From NCBI GenBank assembly GCA_020002185.1, contig CM034542.1, positions 54,591,858 through 54,655,857 on the forward strand: a stretch of 64,000 nucleotides of DNA, written 5' to 3'. Positions 27,601 to 62,443 of the stretch are shown piece after piece. Position 1 is the first letter of the stretch. The number at the start of each line of letters is the position of its first letter. The notes under the pieces were generated by a model. That model was given only the letters and a program-made list of their open reading frames with translations. It ran no database searches and was not told where the DNA came from. A program made the translations under genes and the position numbers. This stretch comes from Paraescarpia echinospica (lineage: Eukaryota; Annelida; Polychaeta; Sabellida; Siboglinidae).

Positions 27601-27718
27601 AGCCCCTGTCTTCCCTTGTCGCCAGGGCCAGGGAGAGACAGATGGAACCCTCAACGTTGGACCGGGATGACCTGCCCTCCAGGTTGTACCATGCTGTCTC
27701 CCCCGTTGAGGGGATGTC
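565..27718 (-). CDS. BAIAP3: BAIAP3/UNC13D-like (Munc13-4 family) gene, 17 exons seen, both ends missing
   Basis: A minus-strand gene for a Munc13-family vesicle-tethering protein. In animals these proteins bind membranes through C2 domains and act on SNAREs through the MUN domain during dense-core-vesicle, lysosome-related-organelle or endosome fusion and recycling. Seventeen exons join at GT/AG borders with matching phases, giving 1953 coding bases (651 residues). Order N to C: end of a C2 domain (27718-27515); helical MUN/MHD1 region (25197 to 3030), with W/Y-rich segments such as [13 protein letters not shown] and the acidic-aromatic stretch [14 protein letters not shown]; and MHD2 (2437-2291 and 678-565), with [13 protein letters not shown] and [11 protein letters not shown]. 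The first half of the upstream C2 and the C-terminal C2 are outside what I can recognise. The choice between BAIAP3 and UNC13D rests on remembered family resemblance, so the family is firm and the orthologue is less so. The introns carry two retroelements and at least six minisatellites. Confidence 0.85.
708..1247. repeat. 45-bp minisatellite, 12 essentially identical copies
   Basis: Twelve 45-base units run head to tail with no visible differences between internal copies, within the intron just upstream (in gene orientation) of the 565-678 exon. Because 45 is divisible by three and the unit has no stops, long open frames exist on both strands. They are a by-product of the repeat. Perfect identity suggests recent expansion or an assembly-collapsed consensus. 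Confidence 0.97.
1248..2290. other. Intron sequence, no gene seen
   Basis: AT-rich intron of the BAIAP3-like gene between the 2291-2437 and 565-678 exons. The only landmark is a short GGTA run near 2013-2027. A small missing exon is possible, since related proteins can carry a few extra residues here, but both flanking exons are phase 0 and join cleanly. Confidence 0.6.
2291..2437 (-). CDS. BAIAP3: BAIAP3-like exon 16 (MHD2, first part)
   Basis: Encodes 49 residues, [20 protein letters not shown] through SEVLETEEV, phase 0 at both ends. Acceptor GTTTCAG, donor GTGAGT. The pattern [24 protein letters not shown] is the start of MHD2 in Munc13 proteins, where a 'DFLD..L..L...L....F.R.L..LW' helix is conserved. 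Reading through the donor stays open for a while ([12 protein letters not shown]), so the exon end is set by the consensus donor and by family length. Confidence 0.9.
3030..3098 (-). CDS. BAIAP3: BAIAP3-like exon 15
   Basis: Encodes 23 residues, [20 protein letters not shown] and then PDE, phase 0 to phase 0. Acceptor CTTTCAG, donor GTAAGT. A motif of the form 'M(R/K)PD(I/L)KK.V.H..WAP..L....' links MHD1 to MHD2 in BAIAP3/UNC13D. A 69-base exon is too short to find without the splice sites, and both of these are strong. Confidence 0.9.
3754..3969 (-). CDS. BAIAP3: BAIAP3-like exon 14 (MUN region)
   Basis: Encodes 72 residues, [20 protein letters not shown] through [12 protein letters not shown], phase 0 at both ends. 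Acceptor TTACAG, donor GTATGG. The 'C...N.IE.VR..L..LP..L.F' opening followed by a long helix with many K/E residues is characteristic of the MUN domain. Unusually, the first 13 exon bases and the acceptor itself are the first unit of a 28-bp minisatellite that extends upstream into the intron, so the authentic acceptor is followed (in + coordinates) by about 14 near-copies of itself. Confidence 0.92.
3957..4374. repeat. 28-bp minisatellite built from an exon's 3' splice site
   Basis: About 15 units of roughly 28 bases (two of 26) read, on the gene strand, as TTACAG followed by CTGTGTATCACC and then CACTTTGTATG. The unit therefore contains the AG acceptor and the first exon bases of the 3754-3969 exon. 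Variants change CTGTGTATC to CTCTGTATC or CTATGTATC. The gene-strand frame stays open across the array. Confidence 0.95.
4608..4709 (-). CDS. BAIAP3: BAIAP3-like exon 13 (MUN region)
   Basis: Encodes 34 residues, [20 protein letters not shown] to [14 protein letters not shown], phase 0 to 0. Acceptor CTTTCAG. Donor GTGTGT, a weak but usable one inside a short CA/TG run. The pattern 'D.C..A..YA.L...KL' is the conserved MHD1-end helix of Munc13 proteins. The frame ends soon after the donor. Confidence 0.9.
5248..5322 (-). CDS. BAIAP3: BAIAP3-like exon 12 (MUN region)
   Basis: Encodes 25 residues, [20 protein letters not shown] and IQITK, phase 0 to 0. Acceptor TTTGTAG, donor GTATGT. 'FW..L.WPD...A..F...I..D.C' across this exon and the next is a hallmark of the BAIAP3/UNC13D branch. 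Confidence 0.92.
5574..5776. repeat. About 50-bp repeat, three copies, third displaced
   Basis: A unit containing GTGGGACAGTGTTCCCTG and GTGGTGTTACTGACTCAGAA occurs at about 5580, 5632 and 5727. The first two are in tandem. The third follows about 60 bases of unrelated sequence that itself starts with the GTGGGACAG of the next unit. GGGACAGTGTTCCC is a short inverted repeat within the unit. Confidence 0.85.
6024..7035. mobile_element. Foldback (long inverted-repeat) element with an insertion in one arm
   Basis: Bases 6024-6161 and 6898-7035 are inverted repeats of 138 bases with few mismatches, beginning TGTGACGTCACTTATGA. A second inverted pair, 6685-6740 with 6839-6894, lies inside. On the right the two segments are contiguous (6839-7035). 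On the left they are separated by 6162-6684. The simplest reading is a foldback/MITE-like element with arms of about 195 bases and a loop at 6741-6838, whose left arm received an insert of about 520 bases. It lies in the intron between the 7452-7520 and 5248-5322 exons. Confidence 0.85.
6469..6550 (+). repeat. tRNA-like Pol III promoter head (SINE or decayed tRNA)
   Basis: An A box, TAGCTCAGTGGG at 6477-6488, and a B box, GGTTCAATCC at 6535-6544 (one base short of consensus), have the spacing of a tRNA gene. I cannot fold a complete cloverleaf: the acceptor strands do not pair and there is no clear anticodon arm. It lies inside the insert in the foldback element's left arm, so it is more likely a SINE head than a working tRNA gene. 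Confidence 0.6.
7452..7520 (-). CDS. BAIAP3: BAIAP3-like exon 11
   Basis: Encodes 23 residues, [20 protein letters not shown] then FGQ, phase 0 to 0. Acceptor GTCTGCAG, donor GTTGGT. The 'V..STSAVDV..CF.Q' stretch runs into the next exon's IIEFW, as in family members. A second in-frame AG acceptor (GGTCAG) 21 bases into the exon would drop seven residues, so the exact start is slightly uncertain. Confidence 0.85.
7995..8118 (-). CDS. BAIAP3: BAIAP3-like exon 10 (MHD1)
   Basis: Encodes 41 full codons after completing a split serine, with [20 protein letters not shown] in the first half and [16 protein letters not shown] at the end. It enters in phase 2 (one base completes the codon) and leaves in phase 0. 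Acceptor TGGGCAG, donor GTGATT. The 'Y..W...P....W......KA...I..AVE.D' pattern is the MHD1 core. Confidence 0.92.
8265..9047. repeat. C/T-rich degenerate minisatellite (about 28-bp unit)
   Basis: Pyrimidine-rich sequence built from variants of CCCCTACCATCCTCC and TATCCCAACCGTCCTCC. A regular 28-base register is clearest at 8450-8640. It is interrupted by a CR1 insertion at 9048-9889 and resumes to about 10026. Proline/serine-rich open frames here are repeat by-products. In the gene (minus) orientation it is G/A-rich and sits just downstream of an exon's donor site. Confidence 0.9.
9048..9889 (+). mobile_element. 5'-truncated CR1-like LINE, 3' end only
   Basis: Nearly identical to the 3' part of the CR1 at 28.1-32.0 kb, starting in the reverse transcriptase just after the catalytic region (DLDRLIKW) and running through the C-terminal domain, with landmarks [16 protein letters not shown] and ENIDRN. 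Several single-base indels break the frame near 9390-9530. The 3' UTR has an 11-bp hairpin (9839-9849 with 9856-9866, loop TTAATT) followed by two copies of ATCTTGTTAA, the usual kind of short tandem CR1/L2 tail. The insertion is inside the C/T-rich array, so target duplications cannot be recognised. Confidence 0.92.
9890..10026. repeat. C/T-rich minisatellite, continuation
   Basis: Same CCCCTACCATCCTCC-type units as 8265-9047, ending about six bases from the donor of the 10033-10199 exon. On the gene strand the intron therefore starts with a long purine-rich tract. Confidence 0.9.
10033..10199 (-). CDS. BAIAP3: BAIAP3-like exon 9
   Basis: Encodes 55 codons plus two bases (phase 0 in, phase 2 out): [20 protein letters not shown] at the start and [17 protein letters not shown] at the end. 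Acceptor CCCGCAG, donor GTGAGT. The 'LF.LYL.L.EF..L......' helix matches the family. The flanking C/T-rich array begins immediately beyond the donor. Confidence 0.92.
10405..10920. repeat. Degenerate direct and inverted repeats
   Basis: TATATGAAGGGGTTCAGGGC at about 10417 is inverted at about 10795-10818 (GCCCTGAA-like ACCCTGAAACCCTTCATATA). Separately, the about 95 bases from 10425 recur in direct orientation from about 10837 with the shared landmark AGTGCTTCG/TGTGCTTCG. Copies of GGCGTTTAT(T/C)GTGTTTT lie between. This looks like an old non-autonomous element or internally duplicated sequence. No coding content. Confidence 0.5.
11399..12785. repeat. 19-bp minisatellite, 73 copies
   Basis: Seventy-three units of TGGATCACATTCACGGTGG, with one common variant (A for the first G after CAC) and a rarer one (CACTCAC for CATTCAC). 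Since 19 is not divisible by three and no frame has a stop, all three plus frames are open throughout (472, 464 and 455 codons). The order of A and G variants repeats in blocks (see findings). It lies in the 4.6-kb intron between the 14772 and 10199 exon borders. Confidence 0.98.
12977..13280. repeat. TG/CA-rich degenerate microsatellite with ATGC runs
   Basis: Alternating purine-pyrimidine sequence of GTGTGTATGCGTGC-type units ending in an (AT)n run at 13257-13280. Such tracts can adopt Z-DNA. The histidine/threonine-rich and cysteine/valine-rich open frames across it are not genes. Confidence 0.9.
13281..14771. other. Intron sequence, nothing recognised
   Basis: AT-rich intron of the BAIAP3-like gene. 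I see no repeats, RNA genes or convincing exons between the TG-rich tract and the exon at 14772. Confidence 0.6.
14772..14823 (-). CDS. BAIAP3: BAIAP3-like exon 8 (52-base micro-exon)
   Basis: Completes a split lysine and encodes [17 protein letters not shown], leaving in phase 0. Acceptor TTTTGTAG, donor GTAAGT. Its one-base entry matches the two-base exit of the 15191-15288 exon exactly, and the next exon continues [10 protein letters not shown]. Confidence 0.88.
15191..15288 (-). CDS. BAIAP3: BAIAP3-like exon 7
   Basis: Encodes 32 codons plus two bases: [20 protein letters not shown] then [12 protein letters not shown]. Acceptor TTCTTGCAG, donor GTATGT. 'R.ED.L..L..L...L..DL.......Y...F' is the MUN helix preceding MHD1. 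A 33-bp minisatellite begins about 40 bases upstream of its acceptor. Confidence 0.9.
15331..16096. repeat. 33-bp minisatellite, about 23 copies
   Basis: Units contain ATTACAACATGGTCAATGG and TTTTAGATACAGGC with scattered substitutions (CACTGG, GATGCAGG, CCAATGG). Since 33 is divisible by three, frames remain open on both strands. On the gene strand each unit contains TTGAC, a match to the yUnAy branch-point core, and the array ends about 40 bases before a real acceptor. Confidence 0.97.
16228..16336. repeat. Degenerate TG/ATGC-rich tract
   Basis: Short alternating purine-pyrimidine stretch (GTGCGTGCATGC-type) in the intron between the 16552 and 15288 exon borders, resembling the larger one at 12977-13280. 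Confidence 0.6.
16552..16629 (-). CDS. BAIAP3: BAIAP3-like exon 6
   Basis: Encodes 26 residues, [20 protein letters not shown] then DGMRQV, phase 0 to 0. Acceptor GTTACAG, donor GTAAGT. The WYDRV...W motif with the preceding VLK fits the MUN domain. A GTAGTA three bases upstream is a poorer alternative donor. Confidence 0.85.
16630..17414. other. Intron sequence, nothing recognised
   Basis: AT-rich intron between two phase-0 exons. No repeat or RNA gene seen. Confidence 0.6.
17415..17505 (-). CDS. BAIAP3: BAIAP3-like exon 5
   Basis: Completes a split arginine (two bases from the upstream exon) and encodes 30 codons, [20 protein letters not shown] then [10 protein letters not shown], leaving in phase 0. 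Acceptor CCACCAG, donor GTAGGT. It continues VFLLR from the exon at 24048-24172, making the helix [13 protein letters not shown]. The 6.5-kb intron between these two exons is almost filled by the Ngaro element. Confidence 0.88.
17675..17884 (+). repeat. Ngaro repeat A1 (left terminal repeat)
   Basis: Matches 22868-23077 (A2) with only a few differences, from ATTATTTTTACAT to GGAAGATTAAATTCA. It includes CCGGACTCAAAACGAGGCC and AACACAAAGGAAG. It sets the left boundary of the element and presumably carries promoter sequences. Confidence 0.93.
18084..18708 (+). pseudogene. SGNH/GDSL-hydrolase-like ORF of the Ngaro element, broken
   Basis: The long open part starts at about 18142 and contains a block resembling SGNH block II/III ([13 protein letters not shown]) and a C-terminal DxxH-like block ([15 protein letters not shown]). 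The expected first block with the nucleophile serine (GHS) lies just upstream, near 18117, in another frame: a frameshift separates it from the following residues, and another lies near the seven-C run at 18091. The normal role of this protein in Ngaro elements is unknown; esterase activity is inferred from the fold only. Confidence 0.7.
19170..20302 (+). pseudogene. Ngaro Gag-like ORF with a TTPAV repeat, one in-frame stop
   Basis: An ATG at 19170 opens an arginine/proline-rich N-terminus ([20 protein letters not shown]). An in-frame TGA at about 19327 interrupts it, after which the same frame runs to 20302. It has seven copies of a five-residue TTP(A/T)V repeat (19470-19565) and then a conserved segment with [21 protein letters not shown] and WRQYDAQFR, typical of the nucleocapsid-side protein of DIRS/Ngaro elements. 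The C-terminus has a short Cys/His-poor tail, so no zinc knuckle is visible. Confidence 0.75.
20290..21404 (+). pseudogene. Ngaro reverse transcriptase with truncated RNase H
   Basis: Early RT motif ([12 protein letters not shown] and PLGVV) lies in one frame to about 20448. After a frameshift the core continues with [28 protein letters not shown] and the catalytic box HILDDFIFI, so the active-site aspartates are kept. RNase H is represented by its end ([18 protein letters not shown]), but [12 protein letters not shown] runs almost directly into it. The central catalytic part, roughly 70-80 residues in relatives, has been deleted near 21205. Confidence 0.88.
21405..22315 (+). pseudogene. Ngaro tyrosine recombinase, inactivated
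   Basis: The N-terminal SAM-like part ([20 protein letters not shown]) is followed by a frame break near 21530-21610 and the catalytic domain. The first catalytic arginine is present (FHAFLRIGE, about 21850). The HxxR box at about 22180 reads H-S-F-stop because CGA has become TGA, a typical CpG decay change. The final [11 protein letters not shown] box is intact. A TAA at 22118 in the middle of the domain is shared with the second copy at 31966-33519. Confidence 0.88.
22725..22866 (+). repeat. Ngaro repeat B1
   Basis: Shares GGTGGGGGGAAATGGCCGCC and TTCTGCCATTGAGCATCAGC with B2 but lacks about 100 internal bases that B2 and the copy at 33299-33519 retain. It abuts A2 with one base between them. 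Confidence 0.9.
22868..23077 (+). repeat. Ngaro repeat A2
   Basis: Copy of A1 sandwiched between B1 and B2, as expected for split direct repeats that allow a circular intermediate to be completed by templating from the far ends. Confidence 0.92.
23442..23671 (+). repeat. Ngaro repeat B2 (right end)
   Basis: Full-length B repeat ending in CAGCAGGGTATAAAT. It marks the right edge of the element; host intron sequence follows. Confidence 0.9.
23690..23990. repeat. TG-rich degenerate microsatellite
   Basis: GTGTGTGCATGCGTGC-type sequence immediately right of the Ngaro end. No gene. Confidence 0.85.
24048..24172 (-). CDS. BAIAP3: BAIAP3-like exon 4
   Basis: Encodes 41 codons plus two bases: [20 protein letters not shown] and [20 protein letters not shown] then L. 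Acceptor GTTACAG. The donor GTCTGT is weak, but the two-base exit is completed exactly by the next exon (17505 side) to continue FLLRCLIKL. The pattern 'F..YG...I...R..YP....A......L..LL' is family-typical. Confidence 0.88.
24178..24325 (-). repeat. SINE-family fragment
   Basis: Body of the tRNA-derived SINE family (landmarks CTCGACTTCCCTGGAAAGCA and TATATATAGCCAGGTACTC), lying in the short intron between two exons. Confidence 0.6.
24336..24453 (-). CDS. BAIAP3: BAIAP3-like exon 3
   Basis: One base completes a split cysteine, followed by 39 codons: [20 protein letters not shown] then [19 protein letters not shown], leaving in phase 0. Acceptor TTGCCAG, donor GTAAAA. The pattern 'RW..YS......FDW..L..LL..L...W......' is conserved in the family. 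Confidence 0.9.
24530..24665 (-). repeat. SINE-family fragment
   Basis: Contains TATATAGCGCAGTACTTAG and ACTCAAAGCGTTTTACACC, the 3' part of the same SINE family, antisense to the plus strand. Confidence 0.6.
25094..25197 (-). CDS. BAIAP3: BAIAP3-like exon 2
   Basis: Encodes 34 codons plus two bases: [20 protein letters not shown] then [14 protein letters not shown]. Acceptor GGTTGCAG, donor GTGAGT. The 'W.GELS..A..LL.QHA.Q.....' helix follows the C2 domain in BAIAP3/UNC13D. Confidence 0.9.
25298..25545 (-). repeat. tRNA-derived SINE, near complete
   Basis: On the minus strand the tRNA head is at about 25545-25460, with a B box seen on + as GGATTTGAACCC. The body follows (CTCGACTTCTCTGGAAAGCA), ending near GCTGGCAGACC. 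This copy, with those at 41335 (minus) and 42700 (plus), defines the family. Confidence 0.7.
25546..26039. other. Intron sequence, nothing recognised
   Basis: Only a double CACGTACGTCA at 25768-25788 stands out. No exon or RNA gene seen. Confidence 0.5.
26040..27048. repeat. 32-bp minisatellite, about 30 copies
   Basis: Unit: CACATAGCAGCTACAATCAC then AAACATCCCTAG. Two places have an extra run of CACATAG, and a short divergent patch lies at 26635-26740. Spacers are not unique, so this is a minisatellite and not a CRISPR-like array. It is in the first intron seen. Confidence 0.97.
27049..27514. other. Intron sequence, nothing recognised
   Basis: Sequence between the 32-bp array and the donor of the C2 exon. 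It contains several TGC/GCA-rich inverted fragments (GTGCGGCGTGGCACGAACTC versus GGGCCGCGTTCAGAGTTC) that look like a worn-out inverted repeat around 27130-27490. No gene. Confidence 0.4.
27515..27718 (-). CDS. BAIAP3: BAIAP3-like exon 1 of those seen (end of C2 domain)
   Basis: Encodes 68 residues, starting [20 protein letters not shown] and ending [17 protein letters not shown], phase 0 to 0. Acceptor TTCTTGCAG, donor GTGAGT. 'W..L..RSSRS.V.G.I.L.L.L.....' is the last strand region of the first C2 domain in this family. The earlier C2 strands with the calcium-binding loops must lie upstream and are not recognised in this window. A LINE fragment begins within about 10 bases of the acceptor. 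Confidence 0.9.
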
Positions 27719-27726
27719 CTGCAAGA

Positions 27727-28118
27727 AAATTTTCCAAAGTGAGTACAGACAACATCACAGCACCGAGACAGCACTGGTGCGCATTCAGAATGACCATCTC
27801 CATTCCCTTGACAAAAGGAAAGGTGTGCTGGCAGTGCTGCTCGATATGAGTGCGGCGTTTGATACTGTTGACCACTCGATATTAATCAACCAGCTGCGCA
27901 GCATAGGCATTGAAGGCATCGCACTGAAATGGCTGGAGTCATACCTATCGAACCGGACTCAGTCAGTGTGCATTAGTGGCCACAACTCAAATAGAACATT
28001 GCTCGAATCTGGCATCCCACAGGGGTCTGTGCTGGGCCCAATTCTCTTCTCCATATACACTCTGCCATTGGGTGCTATCTTCAGAAGGCACAAGCTGCAA
28101 TCCCATCTTTATTCACAG
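27727..28118 (+). mobile_element. LINE reverse-transcriptase fragment (L2/CR1-like, different from the next element)
   Basis: Plus-frame protein with STETALVRIQNDH, the catalytic-A box LLDMSAAFDTVDH, YLSNRTQSV and the box SGIPQGSVLGPILFSIYT. It stops just before the expected YADDTQ box, where the sequence changes into the start of the CR1 at 28119. A 5'- and 3'-truncated relic. Confidence 0.88.
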
Positions 28119-28189
28119 AGAAGCCTGAAACTGGAGGCATAGATAAAGACAGCAGAAATAAATCGGCAAAGAACAGCCTGGAAAACTGT

Positions 28190-31965: not shown

Positions 31966-33519
31966 CAGAGATTCCTGCAACGATTCTTCCCTGGCGGCAG
32001 TGATGATGCACATGCTTAGCGCATCCTTGTCTGAGGGTACAACACATGCATATAAACGGTATATCGCCTCGTATGCCGCGTTCAGTCAAACACATTTCCC
32101 TACGTGTTCGGTTTCTCCAGCCTCAACAAGTGCTTTAGCTACCTTTATAGCAAGCCTCTTTTCCAAGCACTGTGCTCCAGCTACTCTGTTGACATATATG
32201 TCCGCTTTGTCATATATCCATAAGTTGTCTGATATGCCTGATCTAACTCAACATTTTGTTATAAAGAAACTCTTAGCCGGAGCCTAGAGGCTGGCAGGTA
32301 AACCCGACACACGTCTCCCAATTACTCCGACAGTCCTATGCAGGATTGTCGACGCGACACACTTTACGATCTCATCAGCCTATTTACCCTACACGTTACA
32401 GAGCATGTTTCTCTTGGCATTCCATGCTTTCTTGAAATAACGGTACATTCTCGATCTAGGAGTGAATCTGTCATACAGTTGGCAGATATCACCGTGTCAT
32501 TTTAAACACAACACCTCTGGGCGTCCTGACACCTTATCTATTTCGCAAACGAACGGGCAGTATTGTCCCGTGCAAGCATTTTCGCGATTTCTGAAGGTGC
32601 GAGGTCCATTCCAGGGCCCACTGTATGCATTTGCTGATGCGACCCCTGTTTCCCGTAACTACGTTTGTTAATCCTTAACTAAAGCGCTACAAAGGGCGGG
32701 TCTGGACCCTAGTAAATATAAATCCCACAGTTTTCGAATCGGGGCTGCTACCACGGCGGCTGACATGGGGATGAGTGAAACACAAATTCAATCTATGGGC
32801 AGGTGGAAGTCCTCCGCATTTAAACCTTACATTCGCATCCCTATGATGAATATGACCAGATTTTGAATATGTCTGGGTTGCGATTGGAGGCAATGGGTGC
32901 TTCAGTATAACTGGCATTCATTGGTTGCAGTGATATTCTCGTTCATATAACACTCTCAGTGCGTTTTAGATAATCTTTCTTTTCTTTTTCTTTTTCTTGT
33001 CAACTTACTTGGCCGCTTGCTGTAGGTGGTGGATGTTGCAGTATGACTGGCATTCATTGCGTTCAGCATGGCACCACGGAGTGCGTCTGATACCACCCTG
33101 GCACCCAACTCATGCACATTGTACAGATGTTTCAGTATGACTGACATCATTCTTACTTAACAGGCATTGCTAGTTAGCCACTATGTCTCGTTTGTTTGAT
33201 TATTGGTAGTTATAGTTTGCTGATCACTCGTTAGATTCTTCAACACTGGCAGAGCCCTGGGGTGGGGGGTTGGGTCCCTACTACTGGAACCGGTGGGGGG
33301 AAATGGCCGCCCCACCTTTGCTAATCTGATTGTCACTTAATAATTGTTTGTGTAGTACCTCGATGAGAGTATGATTTGTTCTGCTTTATGCATCGTGTAT
33401 GTGATTTAATTCCTGTTGGTACAATTATTAAATGACCTTTACCAACTACATCCAATCTTGTTTAATTTGTATAGCATACGAGCTCAGGGTTCTGCCATTG
33501 AGCATTAGCAGGGTATAAA
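31966..33519 (+). mobile_element. Second Ngaro copy, 5'-truncated: tyrosine recombinase plus one B repeat
   Basis: Begins abruptly at CAGAGATTCCTGCAACG directly after the CR1 tail and matches the first copy from 21368 to its B repeat (33299-33519). The recombinase reads [20 protein letters not shown] and, in a later frame, [15 protein letters not shown] and [11 protein letters not shown], so the HxxR box is intact here. About 10 bases that encode the first catalytic arginine are deleted near 32434, with a frameshift, and a stop lies at 32285. There is no A2-B2; the element ends in a single full B. Confidence 0.9.
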
Positions 33520-33534
33520 TGCGTTAATTGTTTT

Positions 33535-36366
33535 CAATCACTTTGACATGGGACATGTTTGTCTCGTGAATATTGGATGAACTACTGCATTAGAGAAGAT
33601 AAAACATCAATTGGGAATGAGTTTTCACACCCATAACGTAGGCCTATTTTCTTGTAACTTACGCGACGGAGATGAAAGGGTAACATACATTCCCCTTTGT
33701 GGTTAATCTAGTTATGTCTGTAGCTTGATATCAGCCTAGCCTTCGTGAAGATTTGTAACATGCAGGACATCTATTTCGGGTAAGACCACATTAAGGACCT
33801 GTCCGCCAAAAGAGTGCAATTGAAAATACCGTTTTGGTGTGATATGCGTGAGTTTATTTCTATCACTTTGAGATGGGACATGTTTGTGTCGTGAATACTG
33901 AATGTTCTACTGCATTAGACAAGATAAAACATCAAATGGGAATGAGTTTTCACACCCACAACTTACGTACTGTTTTCTTGTAACTTACGTGACGGAGATG
34001 AAAGGGTAAGATGCATTCCCGTTTGTGGTTAATCTAGTTATGTGTGTAGCTTGAGATCAGTCTAGCCTTCGTGAAGATTTGTAACATTTGGGACAAGACC
34101 ACATTAAGGATCCGTCCGCCGAAATAGTGCACTTGAAAATACTGTTTTGTGAAGATATGCGATAATTTTTTCAATCACTTTGACATGGGACATGTTTGTC
34201 TCGAGAATACTGAATGTACTACTGCATTAGACAACATAAAACATCAAATGGGAATGAGTTTTCACACCTATAACTTACGTACTATTTTCTTGTAACTTAC
34301 GTGACGGAGATGAAAGGGTAACATGCATTCCCCTTTGTGGTTAATCTAGTTATGTGTGTAGCTAGAGATCAGTCTAGCCTTCGTGAAGATTTGTAACATG
34401 CAGGACATCTATTTGGGGTGAAGACCACATTAAGTATCCGTACGCCGAAATAGTGCACTTGAAAATACTGTTTTGTAAAGATATGCGAGAATTTTTTCGA
34501 TCACTTTGACATGGGACATGTTTGTCTCGAGAATACTGAATGTACTACTTCATTAGACAAGATAAAACATCAAATGGGAATTAGTTTTCACACCTATAAA
34601 TTACGTACTATTTTCTTGTAACTTACGTGACGGAGATGAAATGGTAAGCTGCAATCCCCTTTGTGGTTAATTTAGTTGTGTGTAGCTTGAGATCAGTCTA
34701 GCCTTCGTGAAAATTTGTAACATGCAGGACATCTATTTGTGACAAGACCACATTAAGGATCCGTCCGCCGAAATAGTGCACTTGAAAATACTGTTTTGTG
34801 GTGATATGCGTGAATTTTATCGATCACTTTGACATGGGACATGTTTGTCTCGTGAATAATGAATGTACTACTGCATTAGACAAGAAAAAACATCAAATGG
34901 GAATTAGTTTTCACACCAATAACTTACGTACTATTTTCTTGTAACTTACGTGACGGAGATGAAAGAGTAACATGCAATCCCCTTTGTGATAAATCTAGTT
35001 ATGTGTGTAGCTTGAGATCAGTCTATCCTTCGTGAAGGTTTGTAACATGCAGAATATCTATTTGTGGTGAAGACCACATTAGGGATCCGTCCGCCGAAAT
35101 AGTGCTCTTGAAAATACTGTTTTGTGATGATATGCGCGAATTTTTTTGATCACTTTTACATGGGACATGTTTGTCTCGAGAATACTGAATGTACTGCTGC
35201 ATTAGACAAGATAAAACATCAAATGGGAATGAGTTTTCGCACCCATAAATTACTTACTATTTTCTTGTAACTTACGTGACGGAGATGAAAGGGTAAGTTG
35301 CATTCCAATTTGTGGTTAATCTAGTTATGTGTGTAGCTTGAGATCAGTGTAGCCTTCGTGAAGATTTGTAACATGCAGGACATCTGTTTGGCATAAGATC
35401 ACATTAAGGATCCGTCCGCCGAAACATCCAGGACATCTATGTGGGGTAAGACCCCATTAAGGATCCGTCCGCCAAAAGAGTGCACTTAAAAAATGCCGTG
35501 TTGGTGTGATATGCGTGAATATTTATCGATCACGTTGACAAGGGACATATTTGGCTCGTGATTACTGAATGTACTACAGAATTAGACAAGATAAAACATC
35601 AAATGGGAATGAGTTTTTACACCCATAACGTACATACTATTTTCTTGTAACTTTAGTGGCGGAGATGAAAAGGTAATATACATTCCCCTTTGTGGTTAAT
35701 CTAGTTATGTGTGCAGCGTGATATTAGTCTAGCCTTCGTGAAGAATTGTAACATGCAGGACATCTATTTGGGGTAAGACCATATTAAGGCTCCATCTGCC
35801 AAAAGAGTGCACTTGAAAATACCATTTGGTGTGATTTGCGTGAATTTTTTTCGATCACTTTGACATGGGACATGTTTGTCTCTTGAATACTGAATGTACT
35901 AATGCATTAGACAAAATAAAACATCAAATGGGAATGAGTTTTCACATCCATAACTTACGTACTATTTTCATGTAACTTACGTGACGGAGATGAAAAATTA
36001 GCATACATTCCCCTTTGTGGTTAATCTAGTTGTGTGTGCAACTTGATATTAGTCTAGCCTTCGTGAAGATTTGTCACACGCAAGACATCTTTTAGGGGTA
36101 AAACATCATTAAGGACCCGTCCGCCGAAACAGTGCACTTGAAAATACCGTTTGGTGTGATATGCGTGAATTGTTTTCGATCACTTTGACATGGGACATGT
36201 TTGTCTCGTGAATTCTGAATGTACTACTGCATTAGACAAGATATAAAATCAAACGGGAATGACTTTTCACACCCATAACTTACGTACTATTTTCACGTAA
36301 CTTACGTGCCTCAGATGAAAGGGTAGCATACATTCCCCTTTGTGGTTATTCTAGTTATGTGTGTAA
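33535..36366. repeat. About 323-bp satellite, about 9 copies
   Basis: Head-to-tail copies start (at the landmark TCACTTTGACATGGGACATG) near 33538, 33859, 34175, 34500, 34824, 35150, 35530, 35857 and 36180. The one long interval (about 380) includes a partial duplication at 35400-35470. Other landmarks: CTTACGTGACGGAGATGAAA, CATTCCCCTTTGTGGTTAAT and GGATCCGTCCGCCGAAA. No open frame or RNA gene. It starts directly at the Ngaro B end. Confidence 0.95.
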
Positions 36367-53146: not shown

Positions 53147-56100
53147 GCAAAATCCAAGAAGAGTGACAAAACGTAGGCATAGCTGCGATTTAGTTGCTAC
53201 ACCTCATTTGTATTTATCAGTTGTACTTGATAGATCTGCTATAAGTTGTTAGCCGTACACAAAATTACTCAGAATATTTCAATACCAGCAATGAACTCTC
53301 GGTTTTTGGAGCGCACATCTGCGAATGGATCGTTAACTGAAGCTGAGGACTTCGCTTCAAAGAATGTCGTTCAAAACCTCGGCTCGACTGTTGTTAATTA
53401 CTGGCTTGGCAGTTCGCGAACATGTCTTTCTAGCGTGTATACAATATAACAGTTCGCTATGTTGTTGGATATTTATATTTTCTATAACCTGGACTGTTAC
53501 GTCTTGTTTTGTTTGACATTTGGAGTGTGGGTAGATTAAAAATTTGTATCATTTTGCGTGTCATAAGTCATAACATCGCGTCCAATGGCAATGCTTAATT
53601 CCGTGACACCTTGTGGCTTTGAGGCTTTGTATTGTGTCGTTTTTTTCTTCCGTCTGACTCCTTCGGTAAATGTCTATGTTGAACTGGCAGCTCCCATTCT
53701 TAATAAACCTGGTTGGCATGTCATCATTCAGTGTAAAAGTGTTATGGAAATATATGTTTTTATTACATGCACTACATCATCGTAATTACATAAATAACAA
53801 GGTGCAACGCAACAGTACACTGAATAGTTACTTTCTGCGCTGCAATTAAACTATTAAATAATATTAAGATACATTTATTTTAAATATGTATTTCTTGACT
53901 GCAACATAGTGTGATAAAGGGATACTTATTTCAATCCAACAACAATTATTATGTCGTATACCTCAGTATGCTCAGATTTTAGTAATACCAACAAATAGAT
54001 AAGGTTATCTGTTTTTATTATACTGATGTATAGTTAGTTTGTATTTCAGTATTGCTATTGCTAACAAATCAACGGATGAGGAAACACTATCGTCTTCAAC
54101 TATTACATGTGAACCCTTTCACATTCTCCATAGAACATAGAACACTGTGCATCAGATAGAGCTGAATACGAATTTGGAGACACTTGCTGTGAGAGAGCAG
54201 TCAAGCATTCATTATTATGTATCAACAAGAAAATGAAATGGAAAATGACAACATGCCTAATAATATTGCATCCTTCATTGGACTGCAATAATTAAAAAAA
54301 GTTTTATTTCTCAATACTGTTGTAGTTTAAGCTCGTTCGTTAGAAACATATCACATTTACTAAACATTATACAATACAACTGACAATCATGAATATATAT
54401 ATACTATAACTATTCTCCCGTGATGATACATATCCTACATCTAATTTTGAAACACATTTACAATAAAAATCAACTGTCAAATAAAAGTAGCAAGTGATGT
54501 TAGTATTTTTATAATTAGCTTTCTGTTAATGCAGGATGTTCACCTTTTTGTTTAAAAAAATGTTTTGTTTAACTAGGAGAATTACTATTTTGTAAAATAC
54601 CTTGTATGTATATATTGTATAGTAAAAAACCTGTTATGTTTACACAATTCTATGAATAATATTGTACTCAAGTAAGTCAACAAACATTTGAAATTACCTC
54701 TAATTCTATTCCATCAAACATTATCATGAAGTATAGCTTGTATGCAAAATCGTGATGTGGGTCTTTTGAGAAATGTTCTTAAACAATTGTAACTGCACTG
54801 ACATCATGTATATTTTGGAATTTTTACGTAAATCAACACATTAATATGTGACATGTAAACAACCTAGCACATTTACGAACCTATTTTGGTAGATAATTAC
54901 GCATATTTCACAAGTGTATTACGGATTATGAACATACACAAATAGCAGTCGGACAAAAGCATTGCCTGCTCCCGAAGCTGTCAGCGGTGAAATGTCGACT
55001 CTAGCGTGTCGGTCCCGCTTGTCAATACACGTTGCATTTCGACTATTGTGATGAATTTAGGTTCCTGTTACCGAACATGGGGTCGCCTTATCATCTCTGG
55101 ATGACATCATCGCAGCAGCCCAACCAAATTATTGAGTGTTTTCAAAAATCGAGCCGCCTTGTCTTCGGAAGTAACTGAAATCTCCGAATCACTCAATGAC
55201 ATTGGCAGCGACAGCGTCAGTGAAATCACTGAATCAGTGAATGGCTGGCTTGCACAATTCTGTCAGTTGCACGCATCATATTAATACTATTACACTGTGA
55301 TACAGTTATACGTATAAATGTTGTATTTGACGTTGAAAATAATCAAATCAGTCAGATAGGCTGATTTTTACACATTTAACTGTGTGTATATATTAACTAA
55401 GGAACCTGTCGGGTGTTACATCTGTCTAAATAGCATCATGTTAATATGTTATTTACGTGGTTAAAATAGAAAATATATGTTCATGTCACCTTTAAAACAA
55501 TTTTGTAACACTTTGTTTGCACTGTGTTAATTAAATAAGCGCTAGTGATTTCGAATACTGATACTTTTCGTAATGGTTTCGTCTGGGATTTTTGTTTCAA
55601 AACGGCATATTCTGTGAACTATTGCCAATTCATATAACACCAGTAGGCCCTACATACATATATAAACAACACAAACACAACGATAGAGTAACAAACTGCA
55701 CTTTACTTTTTTATGAATTGACAGAGCTAATTATTTCGCTACATCAACACAAATCAAACGCGTGACTGTCGTCTTATGAATCACTGCGAAAGACAACAGT
55801 GTAAATGCTAACTAATGTGGATTTATTACGAAACATCATTATAATATTATCATCAATAATATAATAGTTACACGAAATATATTTATAATATTGTACATAT
55901 TACAAATGCGGCAAACAACCAGGTAGACAAGACCCCAGAACGCAGGGCCACAAAACTGACAAATATACGCATGACACAATCGCTTTCTTATACATAACTA
56001 CATCGACGAATAATCAGTGGCCACCAGATAAGTCCACTCCCGACTGACCTACTTTGGACGTTATCCATGGCAACGCCCCAAACGCAGATTGAGTAAACTA
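53147..56100. other. AT-rich sequence, nothing recognised
   Basis: No convincing exon, RNA gene or mobile element. GC content rises abruptly just after 56040. Confidence 0.55.
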
Positions 56101-56105
56101 CTGGC

Positions 56106-56113
56106 TATAAAAG
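56106..56113 (+). promoter_or_regulatory. TATA box at the left edge of the GC-rich block
   Basis: TATAAAAG exactly where the GC-rich block begins. Initiation would be expected near 56135, just before the first hairpin unit (56143). Confidence 0.5.
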
Positions 56114-56142
56114 ATGGGAACAACGCGGAAACTGTTGAGATG

Positions 56143-56210
56143 CAAGACCCAGGTCCGACATGTCACCTGGGAAAGCTTCACCGACAAGAGTGTAACACTC
56201 ATCGGTCTTG
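56143..56210 (+). ncRNA. Hairpin unit 1
   Basis: Inner hairpin arms CCCAGGT (56148-56154) and ACCTGGG (56165-56171), loop CCGACATGTC. A second hairpin follows, 56180-56206 (ACCGA/TCGGT outside, GAGTG/CACTC inside, loop TAA). CAAG (56143-56146) pairs with CTTG (56207-56210) to close a three-way junction. Confidence 0.7.
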
Positions 56211-56247
56211 TGGCGTGCCGGCGACAACCCCGGCCTTCTCTGCGCGA

Positions 56248-56278
56248 CCGGAAGTGGACAGGAGAGCCGGCCGGAAGT
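56248..56278 (+). promoter_or_regulatory. Two ETS-type sites
   Basis: CCGGAAGT occurs at 56248-56255 and again at 56271-56278. It is the consensus of GABP/ETS factors, common in CpG-rich animal promoters. Binding is inferred from the motif alone. Confidence 0.35.
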
Positions 56279-56773
56279 TGCACCGAACCGACCACAAACA
56301 GCTGTCGTGCAGAGGCAACAAGAGCACATTCGTCCATCGACGTCTACAAGTGATTTCTCGGCCGGAGGAGCAAGAGAACAAGAACTGTGTCTGACTTCGC
56401 CATTCCTCACTTCCACGGTGCCACTGTACGTTGCCTTGGGTCCACCCGGCCGCACTCACGGTCGACAATGCGCACCAACTGGTCGCAATGGTCCCCTTGA
56501 GTCAGTCAACCTGTCGTTTCCGTGGCTCAGCCAAGTGTGCGAAAAGAAAGTGGAACAACGCGGGTGATTCCAGACTTAGCAATACCGCTTTGGGATCAAA
56601 TCGCTTTCACCGGAGTAACCCTAACCATGTAACATATCAGAACCGAAAACTGACGAGACCCGACGTCCGTCAGAAGGCTTCCGGCGCCACCCAGGTGGTT
56701 ATCGTGGTAAAAGCGAGGAGACAGATACCCAAAGACTGGCGTACGTGACGGTGTGTGGTTGTCGGGTAGGCTC

Positions 56774-56859
56774 GATGTGCAAGCCCCGGATCCATCGTGT
56801 CACCCGGGGAGGCCGTCACCGACAGCGGAAGCTGAGCAGTGAGGCGACTGGAGCACATC
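56774..56859 (+). ncRNA. Hairpin unit 2
   Basis: Outer stem GATGTGC (56774-56780)/GCACATC (56853-56859). Inner arms CCCCGG (56784-56789)/CCGGGG (56804-56809) with an A-C mismatch and the T-A closing pair, loop CCATCGTGTC. A third helix is possible: CAGC/GCTG with a GGAA loop, flanked by CAC/GTG. Confidence 0.75.
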
Positions 56860-57002
56860 CGGCGCCGCCGACGCAACCACTAGGGCTGTTCTAGAAAGCA
56901 ACTACGCAGCAATGCGGGATAACATCGAAGAAATAACAAGTCCAGTCTGCCGCCGCTGGCGGGTAGACGTGGAAGTGTATAGCAGAGTCGACAGTGGCAG
57001 AC

Positions 57003-57077
57003 GTCGAGGTGCAAGCCTTGGGTCCAGCGTGTCACCCAAGGAGGCCGGACACGCGCCGACTACTGGTGCACCTCGAC
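57003..57077 (+). ncRNA. Hairpin unit 3 (best outer stem)
   Basis: An 11-bp perfect outer stem, GTCGAGGTGCA (57003-57013) with TGCACCTCGAC (57067-57077), encloses inner arms CCTTGGGT (57016-57023) and ACCCAAGG (57034-57041), loop CCAGCGTGTC. The loop bases GCGTGTC are also complementary to GACACGC at 57048-57054, allowing a pseudoknot. Confidence 0.8.
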
Positions 57078-57149
57078 CATCTGTGTCGGCCTCTGTAAGC
57101 CCGGACTGCGGCCATGCGAGGGGTCGAGTGGTGGGGCATGGCTACGGGA

Positions 57150-57212
57150 TCGGTGCAGGCCCAGGGTCCGGCGTGTCACCCTGGGAAGTCTGCAGGACAC
57201 TGATGCGACCGA
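57150..57212 (+). ncRNA. Hairpin unit 4
   Basis: Outer stem TCGGTGCA (57150-57157) with TGCGACCGA (57204-57212, one bulge). Inner arms CCCAGGGT (57160-57167)/ACCCTGGG (57178-57185), loop CCGGCGTGTC. GTGTC in the loop can pair with GACAC at 57196-57200. Confidence 0.78.
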
Positions 57213-57520
57213 GCCTGGGAACCACATCCCCGTGCCGACCCGACCTCCGACACGGCAGCCCCGACACCTCCGGTGGGAGACGTCGGGAGAGGCAAATAAC
57301 CAGGGACACCATTGCACAGAGGAGACATTATTAAGGGTAAAACCCCTCATGCATTATGGTGGACTGCCCTGTTTAAAGACGGTGGTAACACGGAACATAC
57401 AAGAGAAGCCGTCGCGCGTGCTGAACGCACTGTGCAATGACTAGAGAGCATGCACCCGCGTGGCGGCGGGCGATAATAGGGAGACAGAGACGCACGCGGG
57501 GAGTGGCCGCCAATATGCGC

Positions 57521-57580
57521 TGTCCACAGCGTGCAGTCAGCAGGTCCAACATGTCACCTGCGGCCACCGCGGACTGGACA
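57521..57580 (+). ncRNA. Hairpin unit 5
   Basis: Inner arms GCAGGT (57540-57545)/ACCTGC (57556-57561), loop CCAACATGTC. Outer pairing CAGTC (57534-57538)/GACTG (57572-57576), extended imperfectly by TGTCC/GGACA. Confidence 0.72.
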
Positions 57581-57696
57581 ACATCCGGCCGGGCGGCATG
57601 GAAGCACGCTGCCCAGCAACATCTTGGGCGGCTCGTACAGCAGCGTCGCACAGCGGGCTGGCCGGCCAGCGCCGACAAAGTCGCCGACATTGAGCA

Positions 57697-57746
57697 GGTG
57701 CCAGTTCCAGCGTGTCAACTAGCCGGGCGCGTGTCGCGACTGGACC
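57697..57746 (+). ncRNA. Hairpin unit 6 (weak stem)
   Basis: Inner arms are only AGTT (57703-57706)/AACT (57717-57720), but the loop CCAGCGTGTC and closing T-A are kept. Outer GGT.CC (57697-57702) with GG.ACC (57742-57746). Its outer strand overlaps the extended stem of unit 7, so the two cannot form fully together. Confidence 0.55.
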
Positions 57747-57778
57747 GTCCGGCTCCAACGTGTCAGCCGGACGAGTCC
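57742..57778 (+). ncRNA. Hairpin unit 7 (best inner stem)
   Basis: Nine perfect inner pairs, CGTCCGGCT (57746-57754) with AGCCGGACG (57765-57773), extended by GGAC/GTCC after a one-base bulge; loop CCAACGTGTC. Confidence 0.78.
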
Positions 57779-58061
57779 TCGCCACATCATCGCGCATTCG
57801 TGCGTCAATGTCAGTCTTTGTGGGGCCTGGCCGGGCAGCTCTCAGTACGATGTCTGCTCCGGGGCTAGTCTGTCGCGAGGAAGACCTACGTCAACCAACG
57901 TCAACAGAACAGACAGAGTTCAGAAATGTGACACCTACAGTGAGATAACGTTCACCGGGGCACGTAAATATGCGTAGTAGCGTCTCTGACAAGTTCCCTG
58001 CAGACGGTGCGACGCAAGCCGACGGCTCCTTCAGTGAACAACATCTTCAACAAAGTTGTAT

Positions 58062-58067
58062 AATAAA
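58062..58067 (+). terminator. Candidate polyadenylation signal
   Basis: AATAAA at the right edge of the GC-rich block; the sequence becomes AT-rich immediately after. Confidence 0.4.
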
Positions 58068-58089
58068 GAGTGAACGTTTAAAGTGTATA

Positions 58090-60240
58090 CAAAACGCAAG
58101 TTGTAGTGCTTAGCAGCGTAAAAATATACAAGTTCAACAAGTATATGCAAAAGGGGTTTTGCACTTCATAAATCCAACTGTACAACAGGTTTGTATATTT
58201 ATATATAAATCACATTCATTACTTTGTTATCTATATAATCTAATATTTACAAGACACACCACTACGTCTGTTTTACACTTTCTGCGCTTGCTAATCTTTG
58301 TACAAATGTCGAGGGATAACAATGACAGGAAGCTGTCTTGAGCGGGAACTTTGTTAACTTGAGTTATTCCTACCCCAAGAACCACGACAGATGGACATTA
58401 AAATTGTTCGTAAATGGCGACTTAAGCGACATACGCTGGCTGTGAATGGTCCAATAAAACATGGATCAGAAATGATTTTCCATATCTGTTCCAGAAATCT
58501 CACAGGTTTGTGCGTTCTGTGAAGCGTAGCTGTAATGATGCGTGTAGGGTGGCCAAGCAGGCTCCTAATCTCCAGCGATCTACGACTTTGCAGACGATTC
58601 TTCTGTAGCCTCTGCCCAACGTCGGTCCGTCCAATAGTACATGTTGCAAACAGGGGTAAAGTACGACATCAAGTTGGCAGGAAACACCAGATGACTGCTC
58701 ACCCCTACCCACCCTCCCACCCACCCTCCCGCACCCTGAAGAATATAAAAGTGCTATCAAAAATAAGAAACAATACACTTGCATATGTACAAGTCCTCCC
58801 GACTTACCTCGTGATGTATACCAACAATAAATAGGAAATAACAACAGACATCAGATCATAAGAACACGCTTGAGACAAGCGGTGGATACAAGTGAAGCGA
58901 GCTTGGATGTTTGGGTTGCATTACCATGGATACGAGTCTACGGGGGACAGCCAGAGTGGTGTGGGGGCGACACTGGTCTTGAGCACCAGAGAGGACCAAC
59001 ATATGGCAGTAAGCTACAACGGAGATGTCATGTGGTCGAGTCGTACAGTGGCGCCACCTTTTGGTGGGTGTCATGTCTGCCTGGCTGGCGCTGCGCTCAT
59101 TCACTTCAATCATATGACACATCATCATCGTTGCGAAATGAAAATGCTGACAAAACCAGCGCACAACAACACTATAGGTACAGCAAACACAATTAGTCTA
59201 AGCGCACATCGAAACGCCGTACTGGCCAAGGCAGGATTTCGTGTTCTACCGCCGCGGGGTAGATGGCTAGCAGTGACTTGCACGGTCGTTTCGAAACATT
59301 CTGCCATGGTTCGGAGTTAGCATAAGAAAAACGCATGTCTTCCGTCGGTCCGAAAAAAATAAAGCATGCAATTAAGACAGGTGTCGCTACTAGTCACGTC
59401 TACAAATCTCGTTGCGGAGACGATCGAAAGCCGCAGGCAGTAGAACAACGAACTTCCCAGCATTCATAGGGCCAGTGACCACATTGCAAGATTCTAGTGA
59501 ACTACACAGCTAAGATACGTCTATACACATGTATACATGAAGTTTGCAGATCACTGCAGCTATATACAAAGCTATTACTTAACACAACCTCCGATTTTGT
59601 GACGGGGGTAAACACTGATTGACCAGCAGTCAAGCAGTGTTTATTCAGTGATACAACATGACAGCACGCGGCACCACCTGAAACCAAGGAACATACTGAA
59701 ACGCATGACAATTCCCGTCAGTCAAACTGCCAGCAAGATGCATTCACACACGGCTGACAACTGCCATGTCACACAGCTACCAAAACATGTCGCGCACATG
59801 CAGCTGTCGTCCCATAATTAGCACGAAATCATTTTAACAAACTCGATTATCTCGAAACTCACGCAAAAACTCCTGCGACAGGCGGTAACTGTGATGTGAG
59901 GTGTAAAAAGTTATGTTGGACGTTTCTCTTTTAAGCTAATGATATCTCTCACACAGATATGTCTGATCCTCTTCGCCTAGTCCAGAAAAAGCAGAACCAG
60001 GATATTTTATCAACGATCTGAACGAATGCCTTCAAACATTATTCTTCCTCTGGCAGTTTTCAATCAGTCACACCTCTGTAAATAAACAGCCTAAATAATG
60101 ATCACTGTGACAACCAACATCACAAAAGTGCTGCTTTCATTTTGAAAGTCACCTTAAGCACTAAATCAAGTGCACAGCAACCAACAAAATGAAAGCGCCA
60201 CCTTCGTTTTACGTTGCACGTGTACTCAAACAGCCAACTG
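58090..60240. other. No gene recognised (possible 3' UTR of the MYPT gene at its right end)
   Basis: Mixed-composition sequence with no recognised domain in any frame. On the minus strand AATAAA occurs at about 59640, roughly 950 bases after the distal MYPT stop, so 59640-60590 could be that transcript's 3' UTR. Confidence 0.4.
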
Positions 60241-60243
60241 CAC

Positions 60244-60251
60244 TATAAAAG
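60244..60251 (+). promoter_or_regulatory. TATA-like box
   Basis: TATAAAAG, the third such perfect plus-strand match in the window. Only a 60-codon frame (60362-60544) of unknown nature follows it. Weak evidence. Confidence 0.25.
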
Positions 60252-60590
60252 CGACGCTTTCACTTGACAATCGGCGAGACGACGGACCGTAATGACGGGT
60301 GGGACTGACTACAAAGACATAATGTACATATTGCACTGGCTGCGTCGTTGAACTGGCAGCCATGTGCCACCAGGCAGACTCTACAGCCTTCCCAGCAGCA
60401 CTCGAACGAACCTGGCAGTCCGACTCTGTGTGCCTTCACAGGCCACAGATAAAAGGCGTCGGCAGCGAACGGAACAACGCAGATGAACCCGCAGCAAAGA
60501 CGCGTCAAGTGACAGGCATGCGACGACTGGCTAATATCGAGTGATGACGTCGTCCCCGGTCACCGCTGCCACTGTCGGCGAGTCTCAAAA

Positions 60591-60677
60591 CTACTTGGAT
60601 AGTTTGCTGATGACCCGGATTAACGCGCCGTTCTCTTCCTTCAATCTCTGGTTGTCTGTCTTCAGATTCTCCATCGC
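60591..60677 (-). CDS. PPP1R12A: MYPT/PPP1R12 last exon, distal version (leucine zipper, ...SKLSK end)
   Basis: Encodes 28 residues then [23 protein letters not shown] then RVISKLSK. Acceptor GTTTGCAG, entering in phase 0. This is the C-terminal leucine zipper of myosin phosphatase targeting subunits, where NQRLK(E/D)[14 protein letters not shown] is close to invariant. In vertebrates this zipper binds partners such as cGMP-dependent protein kinase and links it to myosin light-chain phosphatase. Upstream exons (ankyrin repeats, PP1-binding motif) must lie beyond 64000. A second version of the exon lies 1.8 kb upstream. Confidence 0.92.
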
Positions 60678-62443
60678 CTGCAAACACAACGTCACGTCGC
60701 TGTCAATGTCTAGCACATTGCTGACACTGGGGACTGTGTCGCAATAACAATACAGGAGAAGTGACAAAAGTGTGTGGATGAATCACAGGTCATAAGATCA
60801 GGTGTAATAAATGTGTACGAGTAATAGTTTTACTTATTTCAGTCGGTTTACCTTTTTTCGGCGACGTTTCAGCAATCTTTATCATATGGCTACCGCAAGA
60901 TGACAACATGGTAGTCATTCTGCACAGACATGTGTGCCTCCTGCGGCAACACCTTTGAAGGGTCTTCAGAAGATCATCATAAAATATGTAAGAGTCTACA
61001 ACGATCTCCTTAACAGCCACGCTTTGAGAAGTCGTATAGAGGGGCACACACCAGAGTGATATATCTGTGCAGAATAACTACTGTGTTGCCATCTAGTGAA
61101 AGCCATCTGAGGAAGATTGTTGATAGCAGTCAAAATTTTGCGATAAAACAGTAAACTAACTGAAATATATAAAAACATTACTCATTCAAACCATCCAGAT
61201 GAACCTCATCACTCTTGTTGCTTATATAATTTATAACAAATACATATACTGAATAGAAATATTTTAAGAAATATGATGGCGGGACTGGTGATGACACGGC
61301 AACACAATGACATGGAGAAACAACGAGAGTAAGTCACAGGAATGATCATAAGGTCACCATGCAAAGGTGATTTGTAATTAATGTCAGATGCTGCACGTGT
61401 AATTTATGAAATAAACATTGACTAGAAACATTTGAACAGATATGATACAGCATGAACTGTTTTAAAGAAATATACAATATTGGTTTGAACAAATTCTTTA
61501 GACAGAAATATTTTATTAAATGTCTAGATTGTCCGATATCTAGTTTCTATTGGCAGTGTTGTCCAAAACGACTATCTATTTCCGCTGTTCTTATAAAACA
61601 AACACGTATACACATAATACACACTCTAAACAAGGCACATCGAAAAACCATGCATCATTGAACACAAGGCGAATTCATGCTGAACGAAGGCAACCATCAG
61701 TGGCAAGACTGCGAGGACAAGAACATATATTATGTACACACCATGCTTTCTGACTACGAGTCAGCAAAGACTGTACGCAAACCGTCCCTACACATTGGAC
61801 ATAAGCCATGTGCAAATGTCTGAAGAACTGGGCAAATAAGAACAGTTTGCCGTAGCTATATATTATTAAACAGTAGTTATCCTTGTAGAGCAGTTTTATG
61901 TTATTCTTCTACTTTATCTGGAACGTGCAGCTCTTATTCTGTAATGACAAAACCAATGCAAAAGCATCTTATACGTACACTATATGGATATTCACAGTTT
62001 ACAAATATATTTTGTTCTGCCCTTCAATGCAGTGATTTCACGTCGTTATTCTAGAAAGTGTGTACAATTTAGACAAAGTTTCTACAGCCGTGCAACATCA
62101 ATTGTAAAGACAGCAAACCAGAGTCAACCATCCAAGTAGCCTTATCGATGTTTTAGCACCGGCCGCACGCATCGCAACAAAATACGCAAACTCCACCAAG
62201 CTTTGGAGACGCGCATGATCAACCTGGATATGGACACACTGGCTGCAAACTTGAGGGAAATGTTCTGGAGCCAAACCAGGATCGCACAGACTCCAGAAGC
62301 TGCCACGTGCACGACAACACAGCACGCATTGAGGGGAACTCCCAAAGGTGTGCTCAGCCATGCAGGACAAGGTCAAGGCCATGTCAGTAGCTCAGAAGGT
62401 CAGATGTCAGTGCATGACAAATAGGCTACAACGTTACGTACGA
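60678..62443. other. Region between the two alternative MYPT last exons
   Basis: No other exon recognised. On the minus strand an AATAAAAT at about 61508-61514 could end transcripts that stop after the proximal exon. Minus- and plus-strand open stretches at 62098-62424 show no recognised domain. Confidence 0.45.

Follow-up and report, generated by a model that had tools for sequence, protein, structure and literature searches.

The GC-rich block between approximately positions 56136 and 58085 carries seven diverged copies of one hairpin module, in which the loop is fixed while the stem changes between copies and stays complementary. The block lies in the 64,000-nt window (the whole stretch of DNA analyzed, C12:54591858-54655857, from a genome of 1.084 Gb in 3111 contigs). 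We interpret it as a single-copy, probably unspliced RNA polymerase II lncRNA gene of about 1.95 kb, the transcript of which would serve as a seven-module scaffold or sponge, and assign this interpretation a probability of about 0.6. The G+C content is 0.595 in 56100-57950 compared to 0.397 in 1-55900, and with a CpG observed/expected ratio of 0.98 the former interval shows no CpG depletion.

Seven copies of one hairpin with covarying stems

The loop motif together with its closing T-A, TCCNNCRTGTCA, was found seven times, always on the plus strand (starts 56154, 56791, 57023, 57167, 57545, 57706, and 57754), and had no match outside the block on either strand of the whole 64-kb window. The seven hairpins with a shared loop reported in the initial annotation were thus all found at their place and, within the window, in the block only (56154-57765, plus strand). 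A gap-free alignment of the copies has 37 columns, which comprise a leader resembling NTGCARN, an 8-nt arm ending in T, the loop CCNNCRTGTC, an A, and the other arm.

56147-56172, plus strand: copy 1 hairpin, loop 56155-56164, 7/8 pairs (mismatch A.A)
56784-56809, plus strand: copy 2 hairpin, loop 56792-56801, 7/8 pairs (mismatch A.C)
57016-57041, plus strand: copy 3 hairpin, loop 57024-57033, 8/8 pairs, predicted probability only 0.01
57160-57185, plus strand: copy 4 hairpin, loop 57168-57177, 8/8 pairs
57538-57563, plus strand: copy 5 hairpin, loop 57546-57555, 7/8 pairs (mismatch A.G)
57699-57724, plus strand: copy 6 hairpin, loop 57707-57716, 6/8 pairs
57747-57772, plus strand: copy 7 hairpin, loop 57755-57764, 8/8 pairs

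The earlier description of stems that differ and yet remain complementary was borne out, whereas the stem lengths given with it were not; each stem is best read as eight positions. The stem of copy 6 contains more pairs than the AGTT/AACT previously assigned to it, and copy 2 (CCCCGG/CCGGGG) retains the closing T-A, with its mismatch located beside the closing pair.

Six of the eight stem pairs were changed on both sides between copies and the other two were invariant. On the plus strand 51 of 56 stem cells were paired, and the covariation score was 0.643 compared to 0.193 (SD 0.061) for shuffled sequences. Neither the 51 paired cells nor the six pairs with two-sided changes were matched in 500 shuffles, and of five covariation measures four were reached by no shuffle and one, the number of further pair types, by a single shuffle of the 500; since the seven copies are related by duplication, these counts are not strict probabilities and overstate the certainty. 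When the partner column was displaced by 1-3 columns as a register control, 25-50% of the cells were paired. A safer number comes from permuting the arms, which keeps the letters of each copy: when each 5' arm was combined with every 3' arm, the true assignment was the sole best among 5040. The shuffles and the permutation together lend good support to the earlier proposal of selection on structure combined with a sequence-specific loop. Most likely, the stem is needed as a shape and the loop as a sequence.

Inverted repeats arising by chance in a GC-rich or coding block would be compatible with the total of short perfect hairpins (at least 6 Watson-Crick pairs, loop of 3-15 nt), which in 56100-58100 was eight; in 20 shuffles the mean was 6.05 and the maximum 10. 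Six of these eight are however copies of a single module, and it is the shared module, not the total, that is unusual. Loop identity, register, and covariation speak against chance, and the arm permutation contradicts it, making this explanation hardly credible. With respect to coding, the loop starts modulo 3 are 1, 2, 0, 0, 0, 2, and 2 for copies 1-7, so that the module copies occupy all three frames, and a Pfam search with 10 ORFs of the block at E up to 1 gave zero domain matches. On these two grounds the module array appears to be noncoding.

An additional perfect 6-bp hairpin, CTGACG/CGTCAG, is located at 56650-56673 (plus strand) and has a 12-nt loop unrelated to that of the module. Long inverted repeats of the block were also considered and set aside, being near chance by a rough estimate made without a control.

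Downstream GACA and outer helices

In copies 1-5 the tetramer GACA begins 6-13 nt past the stem; its reverse complement, TGTC, forms the invariant 3' end of the loop. Copies 6 and 7 contain none at that distance.

56183-56186, plus strand: GACA of copy 1, complement of loop TGTC
56821-56824, plus strand: GACA of copy 2, complement of loop TGTC
57048-57054, plus strand: GACACGC of copy 3, 7-nt complement of loop GCGTGTC
57196-57200, plus strand: GACAC of copy 4, 5-nt complement of loop GTGTC
57577-57580, plus strand: GACA of copy 5, complement of loop TGTC

GACA within 18 nt of the stem in five of seven copies was seen in 0 of 20000 shuffles, a post hoc figure as the tetramer had been noticed before testing. 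Any tetramer present in at least five copies within 18 nt was obtained in 19 of 1000 shuffles, and GACA anywhere within 60 nt in five copies in 24 of 5000. The longest downstream loop complement, summed over all copies, was not above shuffles (136 of 500), which leaves the identity and position of GACA as the support.

In H-type pseudoknots the 3' end of a loop abuts its stem and pairs with a single strand shortly downstream. Five copies of the module may resemble them, as the 3' end of their loop abuts the stem and GACA follows shortly downstream, and the lengths fit the topology (eight positions in stem 1, 3-6 nt in loop 1, loop 2 absent, and 6-13 nt in loop 3). An H-type pseudoknot formed through UGUC/GACA is therefore possible in five copies. 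Because TGTC and GACA are invariant where present, the pairing carries no covariation, and we infer the pseudoknot from complementarity and spacing. The module is unlike H-type pseudoknots in occurring as tandem diverged copies at one animal locus, with an invariant UGUC/GACA in five of the seven.

The initial annotation had at least four copies enclosed by an outer stem. Helices were indeed found around copies 2, 3, and 5 and around copies 6 and 7 together, with their strands directly outside the conserved ARN, and the 11-bp perfect stem described for copy 3 proved exact.

56774-56780, plus strand: copy 2 outer helix, 5' strand GATGTGC
56853-56859, plus strand: copy 2 outer helix, 3' strand GCACATC
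57003-57013, plus strand: copy 3 outer helix, 5' strand, 11 bp
57067-57077, plus strand: copy 3 outer helix, 3' strand, 11 bp
57527-57534, plus strand: copy 5 outer helix, 5' strand CAGCGTGC
57604-57611, plus strand: copy 5 outer helix, 3' strand GCACGCTG
57686-57695, plus strand: copy 6 outer helix, 5' strand GACATTGAGC
57802-57812, plus strand: copy 6 outer helix, 3' strand GCGTCAATGTC, one bulged G

Compared to shuffled sequences, p was 0.10 for the helix of copy 2, which has 7 bp and was scored as 9 when a bulge was allowed; 0.027 for that of copy 3, of whose 11 bp 10 were tested; 0.018 for that of copy 5 (8 bp); and 0.035 for the bulged 10-bp helix of copy 6, which surrounds copy 7 as well. 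Outer helices of copies 1, 4, and 7 were not above shuffles (p 0.77, 0.28, and 0.30). Predicted pair probabilities were 0.71-0.97 for copy 2, 0.96-1.00 for copy 3, and 0.00 for copy 5. When the outer strands were permuted, those belonging to one copy matched each other better than strands taken from different copies, as only eight of 5040 assignments, the true one included, equaled the true assignment; in this test copies 6 and 7 share part of their downstream windows.

Searches for relatives of the module

At E up to 0.001 the block gave one match in its own 1.08-Gb genome, namely itself. The covariance model R1, built from the seven copies, scores these at 42.9-52.3 bits by construction. With default filters and E up to 10, it found nothing besides them in the whole window; when the filters were disabled, the highest other score in 54-64 kb was 10.6 bits. 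In 60 kb of flanking sequence and four other loci the best score was 17.8 bits.

The extended pattern TGCARN8TCCNNCRTGTCAN7V had nine exact matches genome-wide, five of which were copies 1-5, and the other four pair at no more than 6/8 positions. Allowing one mismatch gave 354 matches (172+182) compared to 158 (81+77) for the control. Among the 100 of these 354 that were listed there were 72 distinct strings; the five belonging to the block pair at 7-8 of 8 positions, and none of the 67 others exceeds 6. One dispersed string occupies 16 of the 100 listed places and accounts for part of the excess over the control. On 26 of the 30-odd loci with the extended pattern at up to one mismatch, the home locus among them, R1 scored at most 14.9 bits outside home. 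Relatives resembling copies 6 and 7 could have escaped this search, since the pattern does not cover those two copies. The bare 12-mer was near background (4820 matches genome-wide compared to 4515 for the reversed pattern); none of 30 genome loci carrying it had more than 5/8 pairs, and R1 gave at most 13 bits on 26 of the 30. The absence of further copies had initially been named as a refutation of the structural reading. None was found in the searches made, and the covariation among the seven local copies stands regardless.

Candidates from other sources were rejected. Viral contigs searched with GTGCAN9TCCNNCRTGTCA gave 95 stretches with a single match each, 94 of them with enough flank, and as none had more than 6/8 pairs they were attributed to chance. 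Prokaryote contigs searched with GTGCARGN7TCCNNCRTGTCACC gave three single hits; these scored 20.7, 15.0, and 13.6 bits and had lost 2, 4, and 7 of the 8 pairs, respectively. The best, from an actinobacterial MAG, has 6/8 pairs and no array, and was taken as chance.

The loop had been described as not matching any familiar structured RNA or ribozyme core. Rfam 15 gave no match at gathering score in the 64 kb. At E up to 10, the region 55900-58200 yielded five weak matches, each of them well short of the gathering score and located away from the module copies. A self-cleaving ribozyme or a riboswitch-like regulatory RNA in several copies would account for a pseudoknot-capable fold and for invariant loop residues. 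However, no ribozyme family was among the five matches, contrary to the self-cleaving option raised initially, and the invariant columns are confined to the loop, the positions next to it, and the TGCA-like leader, with no larger common core recognized. We therefore consider such an RNA very improbable.

It was also suggested that the hairpins are folded single-stranded sites of a mobile element. More broadly, the block could act as DNA, in a mobile element, a replication origin, or an enhancer, either as single strands that fold or as binding sites for proteins. The arms are palindromic as DNA too, and the loops of copies 1 and 5 contain a palindrome of their own, ACATGT. Against this, a double-stranded binding site does not need arms that vary between copies and yet remain complementary, and the block is single-copy, lacks Pfam matches in its 10 ORFs, and had no match by blastn among plasmid and phage records. 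A DNA-level element is thus improbable, and the mobile-element option in particular was not upheld, with the block as its own sole genome match.

Among the listed titles of literature on lncRNAs with repeated stem-loops, H-type pseudoknot repeats, and molluscan hairpin arrays, none concerned this motif, which is not proof of novelty.

Proposed transcription, strand, and role

Words resembling transcript signals are located at both edges of the GC-rich block:

56106-56113, plus strand: TATA box TATAAAAG, left edge; sole TATAAAA on either strand in 55500-58700
58062-58067, plus strand: AATAAA, possible polyadenylation signal, right edge

The copy 1 module begins 34 nt after the start of the TATAAAA, and a further AATAAA is present on the plus strand at 58453. 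Upstream of the TATA box, CCATGGCAAC at 56065-56074 is similar to an RFX X-box half. The word GGAACAACGC occurs on the plus strand at 56117 and 56552, both in the block, and at 60471 near a second TATA box. The latter, another TATAAAAG at 60244-60251 (plus strand), is antisense towards the last exon of the neighboring gene.

This neighbor is on the minus strand. Its last coding stretch, 60594-60713, contains a Pfam PRKG1_interact zipper (E 1.1e-13), and we identify it on this basis as a PPP1R12/MYPT-like gene, convergent with the proposed RNA. PAWR, suggested by a PDB search with the zipper (E 0.11), was superseded by the Pfam match. To the eye, a minus-strand frame 3.3 kb beyond the neighbor's exon (L130:34-270) resembles an earlier part of the same coiled coil. 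The gene provides a synteny handle for locating the block in related animals. At 60793-61077 (minus strand) a weak Pfam Prepro-orexin match (E 0.0011) reaches 19.4 bits, short of the cut-off of 22.6, and is probably due to chance.

Elsewhere in the window, reverse transcriptase stretches are found at 20295-21401 and 27603-28139 (both plus strand). The former, which may be DIRS-like, matched 509 proteins; among the 120 matches listed most were unnamed, and those named came from bivalves (Mizuhopecten, Pinctada, and Argopecten), apart from a single bacterial MAG. Long arrays of minisatellite or satellite repeats are located at 11395-12782 (unit of 19 bp), 15331-16104 (33 bp), 26070-27045 (32 bp), and 33519-36363 (about 325 bp). 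Taken together with the PPP1R12-like neighbor, the reverse transcriptase matches and the minisatellites indicate animal DNA, possibly from a mollusk.

We consider it fairly likely that the functional strand is the plus strand, judging from the promoter and polyadenylation words on it and from its excess of A over T (A 0.239, T 0.171); an A-rich and T-poor composition is common in structured RNAs. Folding predictions favor the minus strand, on which the loop would read GACAYGNNGG. Here 53 of the 56 stem cells are paired compared to 51, as both A.C mismatches of the plus-strand stems become G.U; the plus-strand stems contain no G.U in 56 cells. Using ViennaRNA (span 300), a mean pair probability of at least 0.7 was obtained on the plus strand only for copies 1, 2, and 7, with copies 3-6 at 0.02 or less, whereas on the minus strand six of seven hairpins reached at least 0.68. 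The predicted hairpin probability was higher on the minus strand for five of the seven copies and within 0.01 for the other two. Folding of the block in 120-nt windows on the plus strand was not exceptional (z from -2.42 to 2.19), the lowest z-scores being found on the minus strand (-3.75 at 56600-56719 and -3.15 at 57700, covering copies 6 and 7).

The functional RNA could accordingly be a minus-strand product. It might be a noncoding RNA in its own right or belong to a lengthened 3' UTR of the PPP1R12/MYPT-like gene, which lies on that strand; a minus-strand AATAAA is present at 55827. Against this, a minus-strand AATAAA at 59640-59645 precedes the block, and at the right edge TATA-like words on the minus strand are found only in an AT-rich palindrome near 58203. 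Moreover, with an A-rich and T-poor plus strand the minus strand is U-rich, so that its better folding may reflect wobble pairs. We regard a minus-strand RNA as less likely than a plus-strand one.

According to the plus-strand interpretation, a lncRNA from approximately 56136 to 58085 would carry the seven diverged copies of the module, each consisting of the 8-position stem, in which a U-A pair closes the loop CCNNCRUGUC. The downstream GACA of five copies would pair with the loop UGUC to form an H-type pseudoknot, and several copies would be seated on an outer helix; both structures would serve to present the loop. The array would offer repeated sites to one loop-reading RNA-binding protein and thereby act as a multivalent scaffold or sponge, with the RNA either gathering the protein at a place or titrating it. 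Seven repeats of a covarying stem with a constant loop, in an anatomy like that of roX and NORAD, suggest that one partner binds repeatedly, and this partner is most likely a protein. Among the roles suggested initially, a family of protein-binding hairpins in one transcript thus appears to be the best remaining reading.

More tentatively, and with the odds somewhat against the full proposal, the module may be a hitherto undescribed one, a UGUC-loop hairpin that folds into an H-type pseudoknot on an outer helix and is present seven times in one lncRNA, giving a protein that reads the loop a multivalent platform of its own. If true, this would be an animal lncRNA with a structure deducible from covariation of its own internal repeats; the stems described here were read from one locus without a cross-species alignment. 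The fixed loop provides a direct bait in a search for the partner.

Several copies of one structured motif are present at one locus, as in lncRNAs of the roX/NORAD type. Drosophila roX1 and roX2 likewise have a short motif repeated within stem-loops of a single lncRNA, and rescue by them improves with the number of stem-loops (PMC4719309). The motif there is the 8-nt roXbox, in contrast to a 10-nt hairpin loop with covarying stems here, and nothing in the present analysis connects our locus with dosage compensation. NORAD is similar in logic, as repeated structured sites are presented to a protein (PMC4947167). The NORAD units described there carry the Pumilio element UGURUAUA, which is absent from the module alignment, and the short NORAD stem-loop has a variable loop, unlike the conserved loop of the module. 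According to the same paper, conserved secondary structure is rarely detectable in lncRNAs (PMC4947167); it is against this rarity that the module, for which Rfam 15 has no matching family, is of importance.
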